Source: Propionicimonas paludicola (GTDB lineage Bacteria > Actinomycetota > Actinomycetes > Propionibacteriales > Propionibacteriaceae). Taken from it: 64,000 nucleotides of DNA. The stretch's first letter is position 1; every line of letters begins with the position of its first letter. A program made the translations under genes and the position numbers. Location of the stretch: contig NZ_PDJC01000001.1 in assembly GCF_002563675.1 (NCBI RefSeq), positions 496,001 through 560,000 on the forward strand, given 5' to 3'. The notes under the pieces are model-generated. The model was not told the origin of the DNA, made no database searches, and was given only the letters and a program-made list of their open reading frames with translations. Of the stretch, positions 32,972 to 62,540 are shown in pieces.

Positions 32972-33007
32972 GTGCGCCGCCAGGGACTCGAACCCCGAAC
33001 CCGCTAG
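32972..33007. repeat. attL: 36-bp copy of the tRNA-Lys 3' end
   Basis: Identical over 36 nt to 39010-39045. It contains only the T-arm and 3' acceptor half of the tRNA (reverse orientation), so it is an attachment site and not a tRNA gene. Identity stops sharply at 33008. Confidence 0.92.
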
Positions 33008-33126
33008 GTCTAGTCGCAGCGTCCACATCGCTCCATGCGTGTCCATACTCGCTCACCCGCTACGAGTTAAACATGCTAGTGGAGAGGGAATACCTCCACT
33101 CATGTTCACGCGCCTACACGGGAGAG

Positions 33127-33160
33127 GTGGGTACCAATGTGGGTACTGATCGGTACCCAC
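33127..33160. promoter_or_regulatory. Left integrase arm-type sites
   Basis: GTGGGTAC occurs at 33127-33134 and 33139-33146 (12-nt period) and reversed (GTACCCAC) at 33153-33160. The same octamer pair with the same 12-nt period lies near the right end. Such repeated sites flanking an att core are typical of tyrosine-integrase arm-binding sites. Confidence 0.6.
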
Positions 33161-33288
33161 ATCGACTCTATGAGCGGGTGCGATGCTCGGCGTGTCGACA
33201 TTGCTTCCAGAGATGGCTGATGCCTAGCGTGGGTGCTCCGTTGAGGACGCCTCGGGCACGGACGCCAAGAGGCCGTCAGGAGGGTTGG

Positions 33289-33513
33289 ATGTGCATGGCT
33301 GAGTACTGGACTACCGCGGAGGCGGCGGAGTTCGCACACCACGCGCCCGGGACGCTGGAGTACTGGCGGGGGCAGGGCAAGGGGCCGCAGTTTGTGAAGC
33401 TCCCGAGTGGTCGCGTGCTCTATCGGGCGGCCGACGTGGTGGCGTGGATGGAGGGGGAGGTCCAGCATTTCGCGGCCCATGAGTTGGCCGCGTGGACCGG
33501 GGCGGCGGCGTGA
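33289..33513 (+). CDS. AlpA/excisionase-like helix-turn-helix protein
   Basis: 74 residues. EYWTTAEAAEFAHHAPGTLE is a MerR-like helix-turn-helix of the AlpA/Xis family, with RVLYRAADVVAWMEGEVQ as the wing part. Start ATG 33289 follows AGGAGGG at 5-6 nt. Likely directs excision or regulates element genes. An inverted repeat AGTGGAG/CTCCACT lies upstream at 33078-33100. The GTGA overlap at its stop couples it to the replication-type ATPase. Confidence 0.8.
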   Translation: MCMAEYWTTAEAAEFAHHAPGTLEYWRGQGKGPQFVKLPSGRVLYRAADVVAWMEGEVQHFAAHELAAWTGAAA

Positions 33514-34988
33514 CCGCTTTGGGAATGACCCCCGTGTGTGCCGCGCCTGTCGGGTACCGGGCAGCCCACGAGCGGGTGGCCGACGAGCGTCTGCCTGCCT
33601 ACCTACACAAGTGCGTGGACTGCGATGGGCTGGCCCAGGAGTGGAGTTACGACCACGCGGACCCTGACGAGCGCTACGCGGCCGATAGGGCGAACTACGG
33701 CGCGGCCTACTCGCTGGACACCGGGCACTACCAGCCACGCTGCAAGTCCTGCCATGTGAGGTGGGACAAGATGTACGCCCGGCAGCGGCGGGGCGAGTCG
33801 CAGCCGGTGCCGACCGGGTTCGCTCCACGACGTTTTGCCCCGGAGGCGACTTGGGAGATCAGGGCGTTCGCACGGCGGGCGCTGGGGTTGCCGGATGATC
33901 CGCTCTCGGATGTTCGCGAGATGCTCGGGCACTTCGTGTCTGCCCAGACTGATGAGGATTTGGACACGGTGGCCCTGTGGATTGCGGCCACGCACTTGGG
34001 TGCCCATGGGGTGGGGCATGCGATTCCGAGGCTGGCCATCGTGGCCCCGTCCTACGGTGCTGGTAAGTCGACTCTGCTCAGGTTCGTGGCCCGGCTGTCG
34101 CATCGCGGCGAGGTGATCGGCAGCACAGTCACCAACTCCACGATTACCCGCATCGCGCAGGATGAGGGCTACTCCACGCTGTGTTTCGACGAGGCAGACA
34201 AGACTCTGCGACCGGAGAACGAGGGAGCTACCGCAATCCTCAACGCGGGCTGGGAGCGTGGGGCCACTGCGAGGTTGACGGTGCCGGTCGGGCAGGACTG
34301 GCGAGCAACCAAGGTTGATGTGTTCATGCCGGTGGCGTTCGCGGGCAATGGCGTGCGCCTCGCTCCGGATACCGAGGAACGCACCCTCACCGTGCGACTG
34401 GTCCGGTCAGAAGACACCCCGGAGGTTGACTGGGTTGAGCACCTGAGCGGCGTGGATGACCGGCTTCGCGCCCGGCTGGCGGCATGGGCGATGGACGCGG
34501 CTAGTCAGAGGCTCGTCAGGAAGCCACCAGCGCCGGGCCTGGCCGCTCGTGACCGTGATCGCTGGTCGATCATGCTCTCCGCAGCCCACGCCGCAGGCGG
34601 CCGGTGGCTTGCCACGGCTGGACGCCTCGCCCTGGTTGACCGTGACCGCCGCAAGGCTGAGACCGATGCCTCCGACCTGCCGCCCAATGAGCAACTCATG
34701 TGGGACGTGTGGGCCATCTGGCCTTCCGGGCATAACCGGATGTCGAGCAAGGCACTGGTCGATGCGCTGGCTGCGCATAACCCGAGCCTGTGGGGCGTGC
34801 CGTCCGGTAGACCCCTCACGGCAAAGGCCTTGTCCGGGAAGCTGAAGCGCTTCTACGGGATCACACCAACCCGCTGGGGCTCCGATGGTGAGCGATCGCG
34901 TGGCTACTGCCTGGCCGACATGGCCCGAGCATGGAAGCTTGTCGGAGTGCCCGACAACAGTGAAATGCCGGGCGATAGCGGCCCGTAG
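33510..34988 (+). CDS. Zinc-finger/HNH-like domain fused to DUF3631 ATPase (replication protein)
   Basis: 492 residues from GTG 33510. Residues 34-86 show KCVDCDG (Cys 35, 38), EWSYDHADPDER and PRCKSCHVRWDK (Cys 78, 81, His 82), an HNH-like zinc module. The rest is a P-loop ATPase of the DUF3631 kind found with phage and plasmid primases: Walker A SYGAGKST (181-188), Walker B LCFDEAD (224-230), and the C-terminal HNPSLWGVPSGRPLTAKALS helix region common to DUF3631. Probably the helicase/replication initiator of the element. No primase (Prim-Pol) domain is seen. Nuclease activity of the N-terminus is inference. Confidence 0.78.
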   Translation: MTALGMTPVCAAPVGYRAAHERVADERLPAYLHKCVDCDGLAQEWSYDHADPDERYAADRANYGAAYSLDTGHYQPRCKSCHVRWDKMYARQRRGESQPVPTGFAPRRFAPEATWEIRAFARRALGLPDDPLSDVREMLGHFVSAQTDEDLDTVALWIAATHLGAHGVGHAIPRLAIVAPSYGAGKSTLLRFVARLSHRGEVIGSTVTNSTITRIAQDEGYSTLCFDEADKTLRPENEGATAILNAGWERGATARLTVPVGQDWRATKVDVFMPVAFAGNGVRLAPDTEERTLTVRLVRSEDTPEVDWVEHLSGVDDRLRARLAAWAMDAASQRLVRKPPAPGLAARDRDRWSIMLSAAHAAGGRWLATAGRLALVDRDRRKAETDASDLPPNEQLMWDVWAIWPSGHNRMSSKALVDALAAHNPSLWGVPSGRPLTAKALSGKLKRFYGITPTRWGSDGERSRGYCLADMARAWKLVGVPDNSEMPGDSGP

Positions 34989-35245
34989 GGACCGACCCAA
35001 GGCTCAGTCAACGCAGGTCATACCCAACACTTCCCCAACCCTCCGAAACCGACCACGCGGGCACCGCCATACCCCCGGCCGGCCTCGTACTCCGATTACC
35101 TGGCCAATCCGGGCGATCTGGGCAAGTGCCTTGTCGGAGGCACTTTCATATGGGCAGGTACCCGGGCGACAACCGGGTCAGCAAGAGGCGGCGGCCTCCG
35201 GTGTGACGGGAGTTTCGACTTTGGCACTGCCGATGCCTCGCGCCA
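34989..35245. other. Non-coding stretch inside the element
   Basis: 257 nt between the convergent replication ATPase and TIR gene. It holds a hairpin AAGTGCC (35124-35130) / GGCACTT (35139-35145) with loop TTGTCGGA, a possible terminator, and a GC-rich run of short CCGG-type repeats around 35060-35080. Open frames here look like shadows. It could include the element's replication origin, but no iterons were recognised. Confidence 0.4.
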
Positions 35246-36580
35246 TCAGCGCGCCCGGGTCTTGCGGCGTCCTTCGAACCAACCCTCGATGAACCTCGCA
35301 TCAATGAACCGCTGCGTCAGCTCGCTGCCAGTTTCCGGAAGGTTGAGCAGCTGTGAAGTGAATCCGAATCGGTGCTCCATGTCGCTCCGGATCGCCTGCG
35401 TGATCCGGACTGTCTCGGCTGACCGAGCTTGGTAAAGCCTCTCGAACAGGGCACCCGTTGCGGGTATCCCGCGGAAGCCGAAGTCGTTCGCAAATCGGAG
35501 GTTATTGGCGTCCCACGGCCACATGTGCCACTCGATCATCCCTTGTGTCAGGAACGCACGAGTGGAGCTAGGCAACCACGTGCTGGTATCCGACAGTAGC
35601 CACAGAGCTACATCGATGGGCTCATAGAACGATGTGCTCGGTCCCATGAGTGAGCCCTGAACGTAGTGACACGCGACGTAGGCGGGGTCCATCCCGAAGA
35701 AGTCTGGTGCGTGAAGCGCGAGCTGTTCGGACACCGATCGCCGGCCCCTTTCCACGGCGACCTGGTAGCTACGCTCAATCTCTTGTTCGAGTGGCCCGCC
35801 GAAGCCGGTGATGGCTAGTTGCGGCGCGTACTCGACTACGAAACTCACATGCTTGAGGCAGGTATCGAGTAGCCCGGGGTGGGAGCGGATGAATTCGTGC
35901 ACTCGCTCTGGTGGGGTTAGCTGGCTGATCCGCTGATCGTTGGCCGCTGACCGCCATGCGTTCTGAAGAGCTGCCTGAGCGATGCGGTGCCCACGGGCAC
36001 GTGCGTCGTTGTCCCAAGGCGGCAGCGGGAACTCCCACCGCTCCCAAACCCCGGACCTGTCGTAACTCGCCTCGGACGCCATGTCGAGCCACCAATCGTC
36101 GGAGATGACCGGTGGGCTTTCCCATCCCCTTTCAATTAGGTAATCGCGCGCTTCGATCAACGATGATCCTTGGGGCCGAATCACCTTGGCGAGCTTCTTC
36201 ACGACAGCGTCCAGCCCCTCCGATGAGAGCGTTGCGACCTTGTCGGCCAGAGGAGGTGAGAATGCGCGCACGTCGCTCCTGGTTACGTTGTGCCAAATCG
36301 GGAGCAGCACGTTGCGGTCGCCATCATTCTGCCTTGCCACAAGCCCATCCAGTTCCCACTGTGGCCACTGCTTCGCGAAGAAGTGTGGGCTGAGCACGAC
36401 GACGCCGAACCGTGCTTGGGTCAGGCCCCTGTCGATCGAACGGCGCAGTCCATCCCCGATATTCAGGCTGAACTCGTCGTACCAGACTTCAATGTGGGAG
36501 TCACGAAGCCGTTCTGCCAGATCCCGGACAAAGCCATCCTTGTCCTCGCTCGCATGCGAGATGAACACGTCGTACAGCAC
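35246..36580 (-). CDS. TIR-domain protein with unknown C-terminal domain (candidate anti-phage effector)
   Basis: 444 residues from GTG 36580; TAAGCT lies 6 nt upstream. Residues 1-140 are a TIR domain: YDVFISHASEDKDGFVRDLA, the BB-loop-like VWYDEFSLNIGDGLRRSIDR, FGVVVLSPHFFAKQWPQWEL with Glu 76 at the NADase catalytic position, and VLLPIWHNVTRSDV. Residues 150-444 match no family I know; they are Trp-rich and helical (WERWEFPLPPWDNDARARGH, GMIEWHMWPWDANNLRFAND). TIR proteins on mobile elements commonly deplete NAD+ during phage infection. Third codon positions are richer in A/T than core genes, consistent with transfer. Confidence 0.82.
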   Translation of the reverse strand: MLYDVFISHASEDKDGFVRDLAERLRDSHIEVWYDEFSLNIGDGLRRSIDRGLTQARFGVVVLSPHFFAKQWPQWELDGLVARQNDGDRNVLLPIWHNVTRSDVRAFSPPLADKVATLSSEGLDAVVKKLAKVIRPQGSSLIEARDYLIERGWESPPVISDDWWLDMASEASYDRSGVWERWEFPLPPWDNDARARGHRIAQAALQNAWRSAANDQRISQLTPPERVHEFIRSHPGLLDTCLKHVSFVVEYAPQLAITGFGGPLEQEIERSYQVAVERGRRSVSEQLALHAPDFFGMDPAYVACHYVQGSLMGPSTSFYEPIDVALWLLSDTSTWLPSSTRAFLTQGMIEWHMWPWDANNLRFANDFGFRGIPATGALFERLYQARSAETVRITQAIRSDMEHRFGFTSQLLNLPETGSELTQRFIDARFIEGWFEGRRKTRAR

Positions 36581-36738
36581 TGCCTCAGCTTACGGGCGTG
36601 AAGGCGGCCCACGCGTTGCATCGGAGCATTGGCGACCCCAGTGGTGAGCCGCTCAATGCGTCCCGCGGCGACTTCGAAACCGTGGCAGGTTCACTCCTGG
36701 TTGTGGACGGCGGGTCAGAAAGAGGGCTTGTGTCGGGG

Positions 36739-37566
36739 TTATGGGGGTGGGGTTCGCGTCCAAATTAGCCATAGGCAGAGGATGTAGAGGACGACACCAC
36801 AAGTGGCGAACAAGCACAGGGCCATTATCCGGACGAGCTTCCACCAGTCTGCGCGATTGGCTGGCCGCCTGACCGCGGCGCCCAGCAATATGCCGACAAC
36901 GAGCATGAAAACCGTCCCGCCCAGCAAGCCTGCAGTTGCGAGGAGTCTTGCTGACGTGGTGGCATCCAGGTCGGCCCGCCACCCGATGACGGCAAGGATG
37001 GCCGGGGCCGACAGGCTCCCGATCAAGCTCCCGACCAGGGCGTTGTTGGTCCATTCCGGGAGATGGAAGCGGTGTGCGGGCTCCGAAGCCGGGGTAGGTG
37101 TGCTGGGGTTAGGCGTTGCGGGTGTGCTCGACGGCCTCAGTCGTTCCAGTTCCTTAGCGACAAGCCCGAACTCGGCCTCCAGGCTGGCCCGATTCTGCGT
37201 GGCTAGAAGCTGATCGGGGCTTTCGGCGGCGACCTTGAGCGTTCGAGTCAAAGGGCTGGTCAAGTCATCGGAGAACCCGTCCGTCAAGATGATGGTGAGT
37301 CGAGGAATAGACCACCGGCAACGGAAGGCTAATGGGACGGTTCTCTTCTGGTCCGCGTCGAGTGCCTCGAAGGTACTCGCCAGGCTCGGCCGCTCGTACC
37401 TGGCGTTCGCGAAGCTGACACTCACCTGAGGGTCGGGAGTCGGGGTAACGCCTAGCACCCCTGCATGGCGATCGACGATCTCCTGGGCCGCACCTACGAA
37501 CGACCAGAACTCCTCTCCGCTGGCCACCTGGATGCTGAACTGGTCCCTATAGGTGTCTTCGTCCAC
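36739..37566 (-). CDS. Three-TM membrane protein of unknown function (element cargo)
   Basis: 275 residues from GTG 37566 with GGAGG close upstream. Residues 1-140 are soluble and beta-rich (FSIQVASGEEFWSFVGAAQE, RWSIPRLTIILTDGFSDDL), then a Pro/Thr-rich linker (STPATPNPSTPTPASEP, about 147-163), then three membrane spans at about 171-192, 205-228 and 243-268. I do not recognise the family. It lies on the same strand as the TIR gene, 158 nt upstream of it, so the two may form one module. A membrane effector or anchor is one possibility; an element maintenance role is another. Confidence 0.7.
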   Translation of the reverse strand: MDEDTYRDQFSIQVASGEEFWSFVGAAQEIVDRHAGVLGVTPTPDPQVSVSFANARYERPSLASTFEALDADQKRTVPLAFRCRWSIPRLTIILTDGFSDDLTSPLTRTLKVAAESPDQLLATQNRASLEAEFGLVAKELERLRPSSTPATPNPSTPTPASEPAHRFHLPEWTNNALVGSLIGSLSAPAILAVIGWRADLDATTSARLLATAGLLGGTVFMLVVGILLGAAVRRPANRADWWKLVRIMALCLFATCGVVLYILCLWLIWTRTPPP

Positions 37567-37670
37567 GTTCCTCCCTAGGCGATGGGCAGCATGTTCTCAC
37601 GGGGTTCGGCCTCCCGGGGCCGATTCGGAACCGCGTTGAGTCGAACCGCGAAGAGAGTACCCTCGTAGTC

Positions 37671-38903
37671 ATGGCATATGCGAGGCTCGCTCCCGGCGAA
37701 CACTCAGAAATCGAAGCGGTGCCTTACCGCCGTGATGAGAACAACAAGCGAGTGAAGGCGGCGAACGTTCGGCAGGCCACTATGTGGCGGGCGCGGTGCA
37801 AGTACCGGTCGCTGGACGGGGTGAGGGAGGACGTCACTAGGTATGCCAGGACGAAACAAGCTGCGGTTCAGGCTGTCCGGGAGGCGGTTGCCGATAAGCG
37901 CCATGCGTCGGCTGGTTCCGGGGACGACTCGCTGAAGCCTTCTACGCCGTTCATCCAGGCGGGTCGCGTCTGGCTGAAGCAGATCGAACGGCCCGAGGCT
38001 GGGAAGTCGGCGAAGACGCTGGAGGCCTACCGTGGCGCGTTCGCCCGCTACATCGACACCGACGGCTGTCACCTCCGCGGACTCACCCTGGCTCAAGCCA
38101 ACGATGTTCAGCGCCTGCTCGCGCTGCTCCAGCGCGTAGCGGATGAACATGGGTCCGGGGCTGCGAAGACGCTGCGCACGGTGCTGTCCGGGGTGCTGGG
38201 CATGGCTCTTCGGCGCGGAGTGTTGCCTGTCAACGCCGCTCTGCAGACGGGCGCTGTCAAGGCGATCAATCCCCGGGCCAGTGCCCGTGACATTCGCCGA
38301 AGCCTTACGTCCGATGAGCGGATTCAGGCCATGGAGGCGGCCGACGCTCTTGCGGCGCAGGAGTGGGCGGACCCGCGGAGCGCCCGCAAGTGGGAGACGG
38401 TGGCCGATCTGATCGCCTTCCTTGCTGGCACGGGCGTTCGGATCTCCGAGGCTCGCCTGCTCCGGTGGGAGCACGTCAGCCTTTCGGATGGTGCCATCGA
38501 GATCCACGGGACAAAGACCCTCAGCTCAGTGCGCGGACTCACTGCCCCGGGCTGGCTTCTCGAACGGCTACGGCGGCGCGCGAGCGTCGGCGGAACCGAA
38601 GGCATGGTCTTCCCGGCCCCGTCGCTGCAAGGGCCGGATTCGACCGTCGAGCTTGCGTCGCATGTACCCATGGATAGTTCGAACCTCCAGAAGTGGGTTC
38701 GCAAGGTCCTCAACAATGCTGGACTGCCGTGGGCGACTTCGCACACCTTCCGGCGCACCGTGGCTACGATCCTTCACGAGAGCAACGCGCCGCTGGTTCG
38801 CATCGCAGATCAGCTCGGCCACGCTAACCCAGCGATGACGGCCAGGGTCTACCTCGGCCGCGACCTGCGGGGGAACAAGGCAGAGCTAGCCGCTCTCCTT
38901 TGA
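37671..38903 (+). CDS. int: Tyrosine recombinase / integrase
   Basis: 410 residues. N-terminal arm-binding part (about 1-90), core-binding SAM-like domain (about 92-200), catalytic domain with Arg 257 (TGVRISEARLL), Lys 282, His 358 and Arg 361 (SHTFRRTVAT), His 384 (QLGHANPAMT) and nucleophile Tyr 394 (ARVYLGRD): the full set. It lies about 100 nt from the right att repeat and reads toward it. TACCCT 7 nt before the ATG, with TTGAGT upstream, indicates a leaderless start. Catalyses integration at tRNA-Lys. Confidence 0.95.
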   Translation: MAYARLAPGEHSEIEAVPYRRDENNKRVKAANVRQATMWRARCKYRSLDGVREDVTRYARTKQAAVQAVREAVADKRHASAGSGDDSLKPSTPFIQAGRVWLKQIERPEAGKSAKTLEAYRGAFARYIDTDGCHLRGLTLAQANDVQRLLALLQRVADEHGSGAAKTLRTVLSGVLGMALRRGVLPVNAALQTGAVKAINPRASARDIRRSLTSDERIQAMEAADALAAQEWADPRSARKWETVADLIAFLAGTGVRISEARLLRWEHVSLSDGAIEIHGTKTLSSVRGLTAPGWLLERLRRRASVGGTEGMVFPAPSLQGPDSTVELASHVPMDSSNLQKWVRKVLNNAGLPWATSHTFRRTVATILHESNAPLVRIADQLGHANPAMTARVYLGRDLRGNKAELAALL

Positions 38904-38933
38904 CGGTGGGACTGATGTAGCGAAATCCCTCAA

Positions 38934-38953
38934 GTGGGTACCTAAGTGGGTAC
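38934..38953. promoter_or_regulatory. Right integrase arm-type sites
   Basis: GTGGGTAC at 38934-38941 and 38946-38953, 12 nt apart, repeating the layout at the left end. They lie 57 nt inside the right att repeat. Confidence 0.6.
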
Positions 38954-38971
38954 TTCCGTCACTGAATAGAC

Positions 38972-39006
38972 AAGGTCCCTGGCTATATGACGTAGCCAGG
39001 GACCTT
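38972..39006. terminator. Element-supplied hairpin terminator between int and tRNA-Lys
   Basis: AAGGTCCCTGGCTA (38972-38985) pairs perfectly with TAGCCAGGGACCTT (38993-39006), loop TATGACG, followed on the plus strand by TT. It ends the integrase transcript and, read on the other strand, also follows the tRNA-Lys 3' end by 4 nt, replacing the native terminator lost to the left flank. Confidence 0.7.
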
Positions 39007-39009
39007 TTC

Positions 39010-39045
39010 GTGCGCCGCCAGGGACTCGAACCCCGAACCCGCTAG
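39010..39045. repeat. attR: 36-bp att repeat inside the intact tRNA-Lys
   Basis: Identical to 32972-33007. It comprises the T-arm, variable region and 3' acceptor strand of tRNA-Lys, which is complete on this side. Confidence 0.92.
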
Positions 39046-39083
39046 TTAAGAGCCAGCTGCTCTGCCAGTTGAGCTAGCGGCGC
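39011..39083 (-). tRNA. tRNA-Lys (anticodon CUU), integration target
   Basis: Acceptor GCGCCGC pairs with GCGGCGC, discriminator A, CCA not encoded. Anticodon arm GCTGG-CTCTTAA-CTAGC gives CTT. D-arm AGCTCAACTGGCAGAGC and T-arm GGGGTTCGAGTCCC are normal. 73 nt. Its 3' half is restored by the element after integration. Confidence 0.95.
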
Positions 39084-56792: not shown

Positions 56793-59700
56793 ATGGTAGA
56801 AACTAGACCTGCACCCAGTAGTGGGGCAGGCGGACGACATCTCGCCAGGCGCAAGAGCCTGGCGCTTGCTGCTTCCATGGCTGTGATCGCCAGCGGCTTT
56901 GCAGCCTTTGGCGCTCCAACTGTGGCGATCGCGGACGACACACTGCCGTATCAGAACACCGCGCTCCCGTTCAGTGTGCGCGCGGCCGATCTGGTCTCGC
57001 GAATGACGCTGGAAGAGAAGTACGACCAGCTGCGGGCCATGCAGCCGCACTCCACCTGGGCCGCCAAGCCGAAGGTGATCTCGCGTCTGGGCGTGAAGTC
57101 CTACGGCTACTGGGGTGAGGCCAACCACGGCATCTACTTCCCGGTGATCTCGGGCAACAGCAACTACACCCAGTACCCGCAGAGCTCCTCGATCTCGTCG
57201 ACCTGGAATACCGACCTGACCGAGCAGATCGCCTCAGGCATCGCCGACGAGGCGCGGGTCACCTACAACACGTCCTGCCCGCCCGGCACGGCGAACCCGA
57301 CCCCGACCGGTGGTGCCTGCTACGGCTTGACCTACTGGTCGCCGAACCAGAACCTGAACCGCGATCCCCGCTGGGGTCGTGCAGACGAGTCCTACTCCGA
57401 GGACCCGGAACTGACCTCGGGCATCGCCAGCGCCTTCGTGACGGGCATGCAGGGCGACACGGCTTCGCGCGTAGACACCGTTCCGGCCGGCCCGAACGAC
57501 TACATCAAGGCCGTGGCCACCCCGAAGCACTACCTGGCCAACAACTCCGAGGCCAACCGCAACTACGGCACCTCGAACCTGACCGAGCGGACGATGCTGG
57601 AGTACTTCGTCCAGCCGTTCGCCGCATCGGCCGGTGCCGCGGGAGCTCGTTCGCTGATGACCGCCTACAACGCGTTCAACATGGTCGAGAGCTACTCCAC
57701 CGACTACCCGTCGGCAGCCAGCTTCCCGACTCTGTGGAGCCCGCGCGACAATGCCACCACCGGTGGCACCCCCGGTACGCCGGCCGCCGGTAGCCGCTAT
57801 GCCATCGAGACCCTGATGCGTCGCTCCTTCGGGTTCGACGGCTTCGTCGTCTCCGACTGCGATGCCATCACCCGCGTGTACGGCAACGGCACCCGCGGCC
57901 ACTCCTGGCAGCCGATCCAGCTCGGCGGGACCACTCAGCTGACCAAGGCGCAGGGCAATGCCTGGGCGCTCAAGGCCGGTACTGACCTGGACTGCTCCGG
58001 TAGTGACTACCCGTCGGCCACCGGCCTGACCGTGTCTCAGGATCAGGGCCTGGTCAGCCAGGCTGACATCGACATCGCCTTGGTCCGGGCCTTCACTGCT
58101 CGGTTCCAGATGGGCGAGTTCGACCCGGTCGCCAACGTGCCGTGGAACAGCGAGTCCTACTCGTTGTCCGAGGGCGGCGACGCCAAGGTCAAGCTGGCTT
58201 CGGCGGCACACCGTGCAGTTGCGCACGAGTCCGCCCTGGAAGCTCCGGTGCTGCTGAAGAATGTCGGCGACACCCTTCCGTTCACTGGCGCGACCACCGG
58301 CAAGACGGTCGCTCTGGGGCACGTTGACACGCTCAACAAGTTCCAGTCCGGCTCTTACTCCGGGCCGACCGCGGTGAGCACCACCTTCGCTCAGGCTCTG
58401 GCCGCGGAGACCGGTGGCGCGACCAGCGACATCGCCTCTGGTGCGGCTACGCCCTTCCTGTCCGATCACCTGGCAGTGTTCCCGGACGCCATCAACTCCG
58501 GTGGCACCGCGATCACCACCTCGAAGTGCGCCACTGATCCCTGTGATCCGACTGCCGACGCCAACACCGCCGAGTACCGGATCTCCCAGGCCGACAACAT
58601 CGTTGTCGTCGTGGGTCACCGCAACAACGACGGTGGCGAGGGTACCGACCGCAGCACGGTCACCATGCCCCGCATGCAGGCCGAGCTGATCCGTGACTCG
58701 GTCGCTCCGCTGGCCAAGAAGTACAACAAGAAGGTCGTGGTCTGGATCCAGGCCAAGACCATGGTTGATCTCAGCCTGTTCAAGGACCTGCCCGAGGTGG
58801 GTGCGATCGTCTGGTCGTCCTTCAACGGCATGTACCAGGGTGCGGCGATGGCTCAGCTGCTGTTCAACGACACCGTGACCCTTGAGGACGGCCGCACCGC
58901 GATCGCCAACTTCTCCGGCAAGCTGCCGCTGACCTGGTACTCCAATGTGGACGCCCAGCTCGGCCCGGCCGCTGCTCCGGATCGGGGCATCGAGGACTAC
59001 CGGATGACCAAGGCCGAAGGCGCCAAGTGTGGTCGCACCTACCTGTACTACCAGGTGGGCGACAACTGCGCGGCTCCGGACTACGTCTTCGGTCACGGCC
59101 TGTCCTACTCGCCGTTCGCCTACAGCGCTCCGACCCTGTCCTCCTCGACGATCAGCCCTGATCAGTCGGTGAAGGTCTCGGTGTCGGTGAGCAACCTGGT
59201 AGCCAACTACCTGGGCAAGGCGGTCGTCGAGGTCTACGCCAAGGCTCCTGAAGGCGCAGATGGAAACCAGCGTCCGCTCAAGCAGCTGAAGGGCTTCGTC
59301 AAGACCGGTGTGATCACCGGAACGCCCGAGGTTGCTGAGGTCACCATCAAGGCCGGCGATCTGTGGTTCTGGGATGACGTGAACCACAAGAAGGTCTTCC
59401 CGAACGGTGACTGGACCATCATGGCCGGCCCCAGCTCGGCTGACGCCGATCTGAAGTCGGTGACCCTGACGGTCACCGGGTCGCGTACCGCTGGCGTCGA
59501 GGTCGTCTCGGCTCAGCCCGATGGCACCGAACTGAGCCTGGATACCCCGGACAACCGGATCAATGCCCAGCTCTCGGTGACCAAGCACGACCTCACCTTC
59601 TGGAAGCTGGCCGACCCGGCGCTCACCGTCGAGTACTCGTCCTCGAACACCGCGGTTGCCACCGTGGATGCCACCGGCGCTGTCGCACCTGTGGGCAAGG

Positions 59701-62540
59701 GCGTTGCTCTGATCAAGGCCACGGCCACGGCCAATGGCGAAACCAAGTCGACGACCTTCCCGGTCGTGGTCACCTCCGGCGCCCCGGACGCCACCGACAC
59801 CCAGTTCCCGAACACTCACACCGCCAGGGTGGACTTCGCCGACAAGACCATCCCGGTCGACTCGGCCGTCACCGGTGTGAAGCTCGCCTCGAACCTGGTT
59901 CCGGCTGCGAACGGGGTCACCTACCGCTACCAGATCGCCCCGATGGACACCAACAGTGCCAAGGCCAAGGTGACCACCGACGGTGTGCTGACCGCCAAGC
60001 AGTCCGGTCAGGTCCGGGTGACGGTCACGGCTACGGATGCTGCAAGCGTGAAGGTGTCTGAGTCGGCATTGATCAGGGTCTCTGCGGTGCTCAACACCAC
60101 CGACCTGCAGCGGGCAGTGAGTGCGGCAACCGCACTCAACTCCTCCGTCTTCACCACGAGCTCGTGGGCGGCGGCGGATTTGGCCACGGTGGCTGCAGCT
60201 GCCAAGCAGGTCGCTGAGAACCCGGCGGCGACTCAGGGAGAGGTCGAGGCAGCAGCGGCATCGCTGATCGATGCCATGGCCAAGCTCGTGTACAAGGGCG
60301 ATCCGACGGTTCTGGCCACGCTGATCAGTGCCACTACGGCGCTGAACGGCAAGCTCGGCAACTTCACTTCGGCTTCCACCGATGCGTTGGCGACCGCGCT
60401 GACCACTGCCCAGACCGTCTACGCGGCTCGCGATGACAAGTCCCAGGCGGACCTGGATGCGGCTGCGTCCGCTCTCCAGACCGCGCTGTCCGGCCTTGTG
60501 GTCGCTAGCCCGGTGGTGGAGAAGTCGGTGCTGCAGAGTGCCTACGACTCCGTCTTCGCTCTGTCGAACAGCACTGGCAAGTACACCAGCACGTCCTGGA
60601 GTGCGCTCCAGACCAAGCTGACGGCTGCCAAGACGGTGCTCGACAATGCGTCGGCAACCCAGGCTGCGGTGGATACTGCTGCCAAGGAGCTGACGGCGGC
60701 GCTGGCTGGCTTGGTGGTCGCCGATCCGGCGGTCGACAAGTCGGTGCTGCAGAGTGCGTACGACGCAGCAGTGGCGATGTCGAGCAGCAAGTACACCACC
60801 GCATCGTGGTCTGCGCTGCAGACCAAGGTGACGTCGGCCAAGACCGTGCTGGACGATGGGACGGCTTCGCAGACCGCGGTGAACACCGCTGTCAAGGAGC
60901 TCACCACCGCGCTGGCCGGCCTGGTCGTTGCGGACGCCGACATCAACAAGGCGGTCTTGCAGAAGGCGTATGACGCTGGCAAGGCGCTGTCGAACAGCAC
61001 GGGGAAGTACACCAGCACGTCGTGGTCGAAGCTCCAGGACGAGCTGACCGATGCGAAGACGGTTCTGGACAATGCTTCGGCGACTCAGGCTGCGGTTGAT
61101 ACCGCGACCGGTGAGTTGACCGATGCGCTGGCCGGTCTGGTGGTTGCTGATCCTGCGGTTGTGAAGACGGTCTTGCAGAAGGCGTATGACGCTGGCAAGG
61201 CGCTGTCGAACAGCACGGGGAAGTACACCAGCACGTCGTGGTCGAAGCTCCAGAGCGAGCTGACCGATGCGAAGACGGTTCTGGACAATGCTTCGGCGAC
61301 TCAGGCTGCGGTTGATACCGCCACTGGTGAGTTGACCGATGCGCTGGCCGGTCTGGTGGTTGCTGATCCTGCGGTTGTGAAGACGGTCTTGCAGAAGGCG
61401 TATGACGCTGGCAAGGCGCTGTCGAACAGCACGGGGAAGTACACCAGCACGTCGTGGTCGAAGCTCCAGAGCGAGCTGACCGATGCGAAGACGGTTCTGG
61501 ACAACGCTTCGGCGACTCAGGCTGCGGTGAACACTGCAGCGCAGGAGTTGACTGACGCGCTGGCCGGTCTGGTGGTTGCTGATCCTGCGGTTGTGAAGAC
61601 GGTCTTGCAGAAGGCGTATGACGCTGGCAAGGCGCTGTCGAACAGCACGGGGAAGTACACCAGCACGTCGTGGTCGAAGCTCCAGAGCGAGCTGACCGAT
61701 GCGAAGACGGTTCTGGACAACGCTTCGGCGACTCAGGCTGCGGTGAACACCGCGACCGGTGAGTTGACCGATGCGCTGGCCGGTCTGGTGGTTGCCGATC
61801 CGGTGATCGACAAGGCTGTTCTGCAGCACACCTATGACGCGGCAATGGCTCTGTCTGCGGACAAGTACACCAGTGCAACCTGGGGTGCCCTGCAGGGCAA
61901 GATGACCGCTGCCAAGTCCGTCCTCGACAATGCGTCGGCGACTCAGGCTCAGGTGGACTCCGCACTGACGGATCTCGCCTCAGCGCTGGCCGGCCTGGCC
62001 GGTGTCGTCACCGACACTCGGATTGCGCTCGATGATCCGGAAGCCAAGTTCGTCGTGGACGACAAGGTGTACACCGGCTCGGCGATCAAGTCCGGGTTCA
62101 CCGTGACCCTGGGTGACCGGCGACTGTACGAAGGTGTCGACTTTGCGACCAGCACTAGCGGCGCCAACACCACGGTCGGCAAGGGTTCGATCACCATCAT
62201 CGGTAAGGGCGACTACTCCGGCACTGCGGTGCTTGAGTTCAAGATCCTGCCGACGAAGCTCAGCGTCTCCAGCGCCAAGGCGGCGAAGGGCAAGGTGACG
62301 GTTTCCTTCAAGCGAGCGTCCTCCGGTCAGCAAGTCTCGGCCTACCGGGTCGAGTACCGGGTGAAGGGGACGTCTTCCTGGAAGGGCGTGACCGTCTCGG
62401 CTTCGAAGTCCAGTGTGACGATCAAGAAGCTGAAGAAGGGCAAGGTGTACCAGGTTCGGGTTCGGTCCTCCAAGACCGTCTCCGGAGTGGACTACTACTC
62501 GGAGTGGAGCTCCAGCAAGTACTCCGCGAAGGTCAAGTAG
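56793..62540 (+). CDS. Large secreted GH3 glycosidase with Ig-like, FIVAR repeat and FN3 domains
   Basis: 1915 residues. Signal peptide ending near residue 48 (LALAASMAVIASGFAAFGAP). GH3 catalytic N-domain to about 430, with nucleophile Asp 355 in FVVSDCDAITRVYG (xylosidase/arabinosidase-like SDCDA), and GH3 C-domain to about 745. Then an FN3-like domain, a bacterial Ig-like region (about 900-1000), nine FIVAR repeats (about 1105-1735), an MBG-like beta domain (about 1740-1830) and a C-terminal fibronectin type III. FIVAR modules bind glycans or proteins at cell surfaces. No LPXTG anchor. GAGGGAC precedes the ATG by about 8 nt. Likely attacks plant or host glycans. Confidence 0.9.
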   Translation: MVETRPAPSSGAGGRHLARRKSLALAASMAVIASGFAAFGAPTVAIADDTLPYQNTALPFSVRAADLVSRMTLEEKYDQLRAMQPHSTWAAKPKVISRLGVKSYGYWGEANHGIYFPVISGNSNYTQYPQSSSISSTWNTDLTEQIASGIADEARVTYNTSCPPGTANPTPTGGACYGLTYWSPNQNLNRDPRWGRADESYSEDPELTSGIASAFVTGMQGDTASRVDTVPAGPNDYIKAVATPKHYLANNSEANRNYGTSNLTERTMLEYFVQPFAASAGAAGARSLMTAYNAFNMVESYSTDYPSAASFPTLWSPRDNATTGGTPGTPAAGSRYAIETLMRRSFGFDGFVVSDCDAITRVYGNGTRGHSWQPIQLGGTTQLTKAQGNAWALKAGTDLDCSGSDYPSATGLTVSQDQGLVSQADIDIALVRAFTARFQMGEFDPVANVPWNSESYSLSEGGDAKVKLASAAHRAVAHESALEAPVLLKNVGDTLPFTGATTGKTVALGHVDTLNKFQSGSYSGPTAVSTTFAQALAAETGGATSDIASGAATPFLSDHLAVFPDAINSGGTAITTSKCATDPCDPTADANTAEYRISQADNIVVVVGHRNNDGGEGTDRSTVTMPRMQAELIRDSVAPLAKKYNKKVVVWIQAKTMVDLSLFKDLPEVGAIVWSSFNGMYQGAAMAQLLFNDTVTLEDGRTAIANFSGKLPLTWYSNVDAQLGPAAAPDRGIEDYRMTKAEGAKCGRTYLYYQVGDNCAAPDYVFGHGLSYSPFAYSAPTLSSSTISPDQSVKVSVSVSNLVANYLGKAVVEVYAKAPEGADGNQRPLKQLKGFVKTGVITGTPEVAEVTIKAGDLWFWDDVNHKKVFPNGDWTIMAGPSSADADLKSVTLTVTGSRTAGVEVVSAQPDGTELSLDTPDNRINAQLSVTKHDLTFWKLADPALTVEYSSSNTAVATVDATGAVAPVGKGVALIKATATANGETKSTTFPVVVTSGAPDATDTQFPNTHTARVDFADKTIPVDSAVTGVKLASNLVPAANGVTYRYQIAPMDTNSAKAKVTTDGVLTAKQSGQVRVTVTATDAASVKVSESALIRVSAVLNTTDLQRAVSAATALNSSVFTTSSWAAADLATVAAAAKQVAENPAATQGEVEAAAASLIDAMAKLVYKGDPTVLATLISATTALNGKLGNFTSASTDALATALTTAQTVYAARDDKSQADLDAAASALQTALSGLVVASPVVEKSVLQSAYDSVFALSNSTGKYTSTSWSALQTKLTAAKTVLDNASATQAAVDTAAKELTAALAGLVVADPAVDKSVLQSAYDAAVAMSSSKYTTASWSALQTKVTSAKTVLDDGTASQTAVNTAVKELTTALAGLVVADADINKAVLQKAYDAGKALSNSTGKYTSTSWSKLQDELTDAKTVLDNASATQAAVDTATGELTDALAGLVVADPAVVKTVLQKAYDAGKALSNSTGKYTSTSWSKLQSELTDAKTVLDNASATQAAVDTATGELTDALAGLVVADPAVVKTVLQKAYDAGKALSNSTGKYTSTSWSKLQSELTDAKTVLDNASATQAAVNTAAQELTDALAGLVVADPAVVKTVLQKAYDAGKALSNSTGKYTSTSWSKLQSELTDAKTVLDNASATQAAVNTATGELTDALAGLVVADPVIDKAVLQHTYDAAMALSADKYTSATWGALQGKMTAAKSVLDNASATQAQVDSALTDLASALAGLAGVVTDTRIALDDPEAKFVVDDKVYTGSAIKSGFTVTLGDRRLYEGVDFATSTSGANTTVGKGSITIIGKGDYSGTAVLEFKILPTKLSVSSAKAAKGKVTVSFKRASSGQQVSAYRVEYRVKGTSSWKGVTVSASKSSVTIKKLKKGKVYQVRVRSSKTVSGVDYYSEWSSSKYSAKVK
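60954..61817 (+). repeat. Four tandem near-identical 216-nt FIVAR repeats
   Basis: Units start at 60954, 61170, 61386 and 61602, each encoding 72 residues beginning VLQKAYDAGKALSNSTGKYT. Differences are few (D/S near the middle, AVDTATGE versus AVNTAAQE). Flanking repeats in the same protein are far more diverged, so these four arose by recent duplication. Confidence 0.95.

Follow-up and report, generated by a model that had tools for sequence, protein, structure and literature searches.

A compact capsid-less integrative element at a tRNA-Lys gene of Propionicimonas paludicola, with an HNH-DUF3631 replication protein and a TIR-domain cargo, as a candidate phage satellite

A small integrative element is inserted at a tRNA-Lys gene of Propionicimonas paludicola, within the 64-kb stretch of contig NZ_PDJC01000001.1 (positions 496,001 to 560,000) that was analysed here and is called the window. 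The host genome (G000) is 3.26 Mb in a single contig. Five genes lie between two copies of an attachment (att) sequence, encoding an excisionase-like protein, a replication protein, two cargo proteins on the opposite strand and a tyrosine integrase (Table 1). An initial annotation, made from the letters of the window alone, had proposed a perfect 36-bp att repeat at tRNA-Lys, an element of about 6 kb, an integrase with an AlpA/Xis-like protein, and two opposite-strand cargo genes between the replication gene and the integrase gene. All of these held: the att copies are identical at 36/36 positions, the element measures 6,038 bp (33008-39045, one att copy counted), the integrase and the Xis-like protein both have Pfam and PHROG matches, and the cargo genes lie where they had been placed. 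An extra open reading frame (ORF; 36598-36768, plus strand, 56 aa) gave a weak signal in a composition-scored scan of ORFs of at least 50 aa and was not counted as a gene.

Table 1. Features of the element and its insertion site, in window coordinates.
Feature	Coordinates	Strand	Basis or remark
att copy distal from tRNA gene	32972-33007		36 bp, perfect
Box cluster GTGGGTAC, left, three boxes (33127, 33139, inverted 33153)	33127-33160		Motif positions
Xis/AlpA-like HTH_17 protein, 74 aa	33289-33513	+	Pfam HTH_17 1.5e-6; PHROG excisionase 2.7e-6
HNH-DUF3631 (RepAM-like) replication protein (rep)	33492-34988	+	DUF3631 6.7e-19; HNH domain at about aa 20-97
Non-coding stretch between rep and cargo	34989-35245		Candidate location of an origin or packaging site
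Cargo 1: 444-aa protein with a TIR domain (aa 3-135) and a further part of about 310 aa	35246-36580	-	Pfam TIR_2 5.5e-20
Cargo 2: orphan membrane protein, 275 aa	36739-37566	-	Hydropathy
Tyrosine integrase (int), 410 aa	37671-38903	+	Pfam Phage_integrase 1.1e-19; PHROG integrase 2.8e-43
Box pair GTGGGTAC, right (38934, 38946)	38934-38953		Motif positions
att copy within 3' half of tRNA-Lys	39010-39045		36 bp; tRNA gene kept intact
tRNA-Lys (anticodon CTT), integration target	39010-39083	-	ARAGORN

The boundaries of the element are well defined. Chance was ruled out as the source of the 36-bp repeat, as exact direct repeats reached no more than 15-18 bp in 20 first-order Markov shuffles of the window. 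Longer exact repeats in the window itself (37-mers) all fall in a coding tandem array (60952-61759 and beyond), and besides this array and the att copies the longest exact repeat is one 20-bp pair. The G+C content is 64.0% in the element and 67.9% in the remaining window; 6-kb stretches of such low G+C are uncommon, not unique (window minimum 63.5%, 5th percentile 64.0%). For an empty site we searched with joined flanks in 30 genomes of the genus, own included, and the tRNA-Lys locus was retrieved from 15 of the 29 others. Every one of the 15 retrieved stretches holds a single perfect copy of the 36-bp core, a count to be read with the reach of the loci, only five of which (L104-L107, L109) extend at least 6.04 kb on the side where a second att copy is expected. 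In G001 the site is empty and clean, the joined flanks matching 164/172 bases straight through the junction; the absence of a clean 36-bp junction, by which the initial annotation would have been refuted, was thus not seen. A related integrase (E 1e-30 or better) was present in one of the 29 other genus genomes (G004, 39% identity), at tRNA-Met. Because the G001 site is empty and this integrase occurs in no other member of the genus, the insertion is, on this sequence comparison, apparently recent or strain-limited. The locus therefore shows what is expected of an integrative element: an att sequence equal to the tRNA 3' end, an intact tRNA gene, a relative's empty site and a recombinase of its own.

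Short repeated boxes add to this picture. All five occurrences of GTGGGTAC in the 64-kb window stand near the two element ends. The count itself is weak (0-4 occurrences in 20 shuffles), and its strength comes from the positions. The boxes are likely to be integrase-binding sites of what we take to be the arm type. Other boxes, of the CGTTGG type and with the same 12-bp spacing, were seen by eye near both ends of a related element (L030) described below.

The replication gene was called a DUF3631 replication ATPase in the initial annotation. The DUF3631 domain stood (residues 323-482 by Pfam), but the protein is actually an HNH-DUF3631 fusion, and DUF3631 is RepAM, the replicase of actinobacterial integrative and conjugative elements (AICEs) of the pMEA300 type (PMC3218068). 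Among the replicase types that serve to recognise an AICE (RepSA, RepAM or Prim-Pol), DUF3631 represents the second. Translation is listed from a GTG at 33492; judging from the sequence, the likely start is the GTG at 33510, which overlaps the xis stop by 4 nt. Residues 138-482 align to the ATPases of relatives, with both a GAGKST motif (aa 189-194), which we take to be Walker A, and an FDEAD motif (Walker B) intact. The N-terminal part, about aa 5-97, is a phage-type HNH nuclease. The replication protein matched 71 phage records, and among the 30 listed, 29 match the HNH part and one the ATPase part. Only two of the 84 compared replicases contain the fusion, those of the window and of its sister element (G281, L030). 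A search for relatives of the replicase in the PDB was unproductive.

In agreement with the initial annotation, no packaging, capsid or relaxase gene was recognised. Profiles for capsid, terminase (TerL), portal, TraB and Prim-Pol had no match among the ORFs of window positions 28-44 kb, and no relaxase was found among the Pfam matches of the five element proteins in a general Pfam scan. Queries for SpdB, TraA and GntR from two Streptomyces plasmids found nothing at 31-41 kb of the window, and primase models had no match in the element. Among the five genes there was also no family-profile match to TerS, other packaging-redirection proteins or Stl-type repressors, genes that are diverse, and cargo 2 is without a family. 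A full prophage was rejected, with no head, tail or other structural genes detected by profiles. The integrase of the element is 30-32% identical to Arthrobacter phage integrases among the best 12 of 74 records.

Such a self-sufficient int-xis-rep set, with neither a packaging nor a mating gene, could also belong to a plasmid-like replicon that integrates and, having no dedicated helper, is spread by natural transformation or by occasional transduction. Two Streptomyces plasmid records with RepAM (13.5-14.3 kb) give this idea a precedent, but both carry TraB/FtsK genes. No extrachromosomal copy of the lineage was found, and the three plasmid records that match the replicase all do so at less than 60% identity and less than 80% cover. 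We regard a plasmid-like origin of this kind as decidedly improbable.

The same backbone with different cargo at tRNA-Lys, for which the initial annotation had proposed a search, was found once. The sister element, in G281 (locus L030), is 7,523 bp long and occupies the same tRNA-Lys(CTT); it is flanked by a 44-bp repeat (95%), within which the 36-bp core is identical to that of the window. Its host shares a genus with Micropruina sp. SSC1 (CP059261, here G344; L061/L064 100% identical over 19,845 bases). Between window and sister, identity is 48% for Xis (over 44 aa), 51-53% for the replicase and 63-65% for the integrase, and the HNH-DUF3631 fusion is kept over its full length (53%). TraB and Prim-Pol had no match in the sister either, and it lies outside any full prophage, so that homologues confined to full prophages, which the initial annotation had named as evidence against its proposal, were not seen. 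This was the one backbone sister across an integrase search at E 1e-60 in 198 family genomes (six with a match, own included) and a replicase search in 293 order genomes (24 with a match, own included).

As cargo the sister encodes two proteins, one of 366 aa and an HNH protein of 143 aa, and an IS630-like transposase comes after them. The transposase gene (L030, 10210-11274; assigned by reading) lies inside the sister and overlaps the end of the small HNH gene. The 366-aa and HNH pair recurs only in a tRNA-Met element of G004, a member of the window's genus; a search of 284 order genomes with the pair gave one hit, the sister itself, and G004, perhaps outside that sample, was not among the hits. 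This tRNA-Met element (L063, 10736-16637) has no DUF3631 match. Integrases 51-53% related were also observed at other loci of the family (L058-L062), mostly beside tRNA-Asn, tRNA-Thr or tRNA-Arg genes, and these loci had no DUF3631, capsid or TraB match.

In order to place the replicase, we scored the neighbourhoods of 88 DUF3631 loci and of the window for five markers: capsid, terminase, portal, TraB and Prim-Pol. The profiles behind the resulting CAP and TRA labels were seeded from the same set of loci, among which PHROGs confirmed the capsid seeds (L031, L034, L035, L041), both terminases and the L034 portal, the L041 portal being outside that confirmation. Several contigs are short (L123, L192, L203, L210), so a label of "none" may mean "not seen". 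In a tree of 84 rows, window and sister fell in a clade of 25 rows (15 CAP, nine neither, one TRA) with a Shimodaira-Hasegawa-like approximate likelihood ratio test (SH-aLRT) support of 98, and 18 of the 19 TRA rows fell outside it. The tree was repeated without IMG/VR contigs because such contigs are preselected for viral genes. This second tree had 42 rows, L049 having been dropped for its long branch, and recovered a window clade of 11 rows with support of 100/100. Four of these rows are CAP, seven, window and sister included, are neither, and none is TRA; the other 31 rows comprise 16 TRA, 11 neither and four CAP.

An AICE origin had been the first idea, taken from the Streptomyces plasmid records, and it was the replicase trees that turned it. 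On this view it would be an integrative mobilisable element: a RepAM element whose TraB was lost and whose transfer depends on another conjugative element. A stripped AICE would have just this int-xis-rep gene set, the relatives commonly include elements that combine TraB, Prim-Pol and DUF3631 close to tRNA genes, and besides the identity of DUF3631 with RepAM of pMEA300 there are Frankia elements without tra or rep that have been called remnants or mobilisable (PMC3218068). The replicase nevertheless lies outside the TraB-bearing clades (100/100 in the tree without viral contigs, with one TRA row inside in the larger tree). The sister is likewise without TraB and Prim-Pol, and the SpdB, TraA and GntR queries also speak against a reduced AICE, which we consider unlikely.

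The window clade also holds small elements that do encode capsids. Capsid-bearing DUF3631 relatives with flanking direct repeats measure 8.0-10.1 kb and occur in several actinobacterial families; L031, L034, L035 and L195 are inside the window's clade, and L041 and L194 are outside. The capsids of L194 and L195 were recognised by our own profile, those of the other four by PHROGs. L034 has terminase, portal and capsid genes, with no tail gene recognised in its gene list. These six loci are probably satellites with a RepAM replicon that resemble capsid-forming phage-inducible chromosomal islands (cf-PICIs), and the element of the window is best placed among them as a branch without a capsid. 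A second possible capsid-less int-DUF3631 locus was observed in G428 (L193, 7485-12714), with an AlbA/Schlafen-like ORF nearby (assigned by reading); an att repeat was not found at L193.

Descent from such relatives could also have ended in decay: a capsid-bearing satellite or prophage would have been stripped of its structural genes, leaving a remnant that is immobile and is kept by its cargo only. Several clade members have a capsid or terminase, and L032 looks like a remnant by reading. In the window, however, the five genes are all open and arm-type boxes stand at both ends, and the empty G001 site, together with an integrase found in no other genus member, points to the recent or strain-limited insertion described above. 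The occurrence of this capsid-less backbone in a second genus, with other cargo, speaks for continued mobility. A decayed remnant is thus quite unlikely in our view.

Taking these observations together, we lean, with moderate confidence, towards a minimal, capsid-less integrative element of the phage-satellite type, predicted to be self-excising and self-replicating and to need a helper phage for packaging. Its support comes from the att repeat with the intact tRNA gene, the empty G001 site, the sister with other cargo and a conserved HNH-DUF3631 fusion, the actinophage-related integrase, a replicase clade with capsid-bearing relatives of 8-10 kb, two phage regions of the host genome that could supply particles, and the precedent of phage satellites that manage without recognised packaging genes (PMC10803314). 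On infection by a helper phage, or on prophage induction, the Xis-like protein would shift the integrase towards excision. The HNH-RepAM ATPase may then start replication of the circle, the HNH part nicking or resolving DNA and the ATPase unwinding it, and the helper terminase would pack copies of the element into helper particles. Packaging by a helper is proposed because the element holds no packaging or capsid gene. Phage-borne DNA would enter new hosts and integrate at tRNA-Lys. Between rounds, the TIR protein may protect both host and element against competing phages by cleavage of NAD+, and the membrane protein may either support it or function independently. The host genome contains two phage regions, at about 890-928 kb (G000:C1; L217, L218) and about 1866-1886 kb (L219), both with terminase and portal matches, open terminase genes and, by reading, long tape-measure-like ORFs; either could be a helper or a competitor.

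Several points weigh against this satellite interpretation. The helper, the packaging and the mobility are inferred from sequence. Neither of two non-coding stretches of the element matches phage DNA, including the interval between the replication gene and the cargo (34960-35260). Conjugative AICEs use this replicase domain too, and some AICE-like elements are known to be without tra or rep (PMC3218068). One TRA row, the viral contig L160, falls inside the window's clade in the 84-row tree, and seven of the 11 genome-derived rows of the clade have no capsid or terminase, some of them on short contigs. That relatives have capsid genes need not imply continued use of phages by a lineage without them. 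The case for mobility rests on two elements, since the searches yielded a single sister. Single-sequence structure models of the cargo were too poor to help (mean predicted local distance difference test score 39 for the TIR protein and 55 for the membrane protein).

A packaging role for the HNH half of the replication protein had at first been thought likely and is now kept as a possible one. In three of five phages examined, HNH relatives are near genome ends: Pinnie gp1 adjoins the terminase genes, Abrogate gp1 is at the left end and Jollymon gp88 is near the right end. The relatives in Looper and Loofah belong to replication or metabolism modules distant from the genome ends, that of Looper having a Cas4 exonuclease as its neighbour and a DnaB-like helicase close by. 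Gordonia phages with the Looper pattern account for 18 of the 30 listed records (of 71), the HNH gene being about 8-9 kb from the end. There was no HNH relative in the stretches around the terminases of the host's two prophages. A bolder proposal would make element and sister the first members seen of a lineage of capsid-less actinobacterial satellites, in which the HNH-fused replicase both replicates and cuts concatemers (or helper DNA) for entry into helper capsids, replacing terminase-redirection genes, and the rep-to-int interval is a cargo hotspot, here filled by a TIR/membrane defence pair. We consider this proposal unlikely.

The description of the cargo as defence-type was borne out for the first gene, which encodes a TIR protein of a defence-type family, and not for the second, for which no homologue was found. 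The TIR protein matched PADLOC models PDC-S66 (2.4e-59) and ThsB (4.1e-36). Its first 135 residues matched the chain of the NAD+ hydrolase AbTIR (6.8e-41), as well as other bacterial TIR chains, including one that we take to be PdTIR. An ELDGL motif is common to the cargo protein and the AbTIR alignment, and its Glu is presumably the catalytic residue of TIR enzymes. The C-terminal 310 residues had no Pfam match. A protein of the same architecture, 42% identical over residues 1-354, is encoded on pCB4, a plasmid of Caulobacter, and no TIR homologue was found in viral contigs by a search sensitive to close relatives only. We therefore regard this cargo as a probable NAD+ hydrolase (NADase) defence protein. 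By eye, the two neighbour proteins of the pCB4 relative show no membrane stretch, and because of this the TIR protein probably does not depend on the membrane protein of the element. The latter consists of an N-terminal part, a Pro-rich linker and three hydrophobic stretches. It matched no family in four libraries save for one match at 0.039, and it had no homologue in 295 other genomes of the class (E 1e-5), in plasmids or, as far as close relatives are concerned, in viral contigs. Thoeris systems pair the TIR protein ThsB with a ThsA effector that has a SIR2 or Macro domain. A Thoeris assignment was rejected, since no ThsA stands beside the TIR gene and its neighbour is the orphan membrane protein, which has no Pfam or PADLOC match.

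Elsewhere in the window, a gene at 56793-62540 (plus strand) encodes a 1,915-aa protein assigned by reading as a glycoside hydrolase family 3 (GH3)-type glycosidase. It contains about six tandem repeats of 72 aa at 60561-61801, with a 216-bp DNA period and nearly identical DNA.

Among known systems, the cargo TIR protein resembles the AbTIR and PdTIR NADases and ThsB of Thoeris along some 130 aa that take in the catalytic Glu region, but differs in its extra C-terminal part of about 310 aa and in the lack of an adjacent ThsA; its activity is a prediction. With the RepAM AICEs of the pMEA300 type the element shares DUF3631, an Xis-like protein, a tyrosine integrase and a tRNA site (PMC3218068). 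It differs from them in having no TraB/FtsK translocase, the FtsK/SpoIIIE-type protein by which an AICE is defined, and no Prim-Pol, and its replicase belongs to a different clade and carries an HNH domain in addition. Classical phage-inducible chromosomal islands (PICIs) of the Staphylococcus aureus pathogenicity island type carry an Stl-type repressor. They also have TerS or another packaging-redirection gene (PMC10690885).

According to the initial annotation, there is little literature on satellites of about 6 kb in Actinobacteria. This is partly outdated: candidate PICIs are described from Mycobacterium, with an integrase and a capsid, some at tRNA genes, and with many integrated elements without phage genes alongside (PMC10654092). 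In a literature search, with subscription papers mostly outside it, no actinobacterial satellite that has a size of about 6 kb and lacks a capsid was seen to be described. Like the element, the Mycobacterium candidates, phiRv1-like elements and cf-PICIs are small, sit in several cases at tRNA genes and carry integrase and replication genes (PMC10654092, PMC10690885). The six capsid-bearing DUF3631 relatives (L031, L034, L035, L041, L194, L195) look like members of this class. It is defined, however, by a major capsid protein in addition to an integrase, and the window element has no capsid gene.

If it is a satellite, its five genes would mark a lower limit for a phage parasite in Actinobacteria, as phage-inducible chromosomal minimalist islands (PICMIs) did in Vibrio, and RepAM, described as a replicase of integrative and conjugative elements in the one paper that a search for DUF3631 found, would be tied to a phage-satellite family. 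The HNH nuclease fused to a replication ATPase offers a testable enzyme. In P4-like satellites, a small variable interval is established as a site of defence genes (PMC9122126). For this bacterial family, tRNA-Lys with the rep-to-int interval may be an anchor for finding defence genes.

The closest likeness is to the PICMIs of Vibrionaceae, for which int, alpA and prim are required; a virulent helper packs their DNA in concatemeric form, and no packaging-redirection gene was recognised in them (PMC10803314). Both are about 6-7 kb, combine an integrase with an AlpA-like regulator and a replication gene, lack capsid-remodelling or recognised packaging genes, and carry defence cargo, a probable one in the case of the element. 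PICMIs are inserted at fis and encode a primase, whereas the element has its int and AlpA-like helix-turn-helix protein at tRNA-Lys in an actinobacterium, with prim replaced by the HNH-DUF3631 ATPase. By this analogy the element would work like a PICMI but is not one, having another site and another replicase. It is thus known in kind; what is unusual is the HNH-RepAM fusion, the small size and the capsid-less backbone in this replicase clade.

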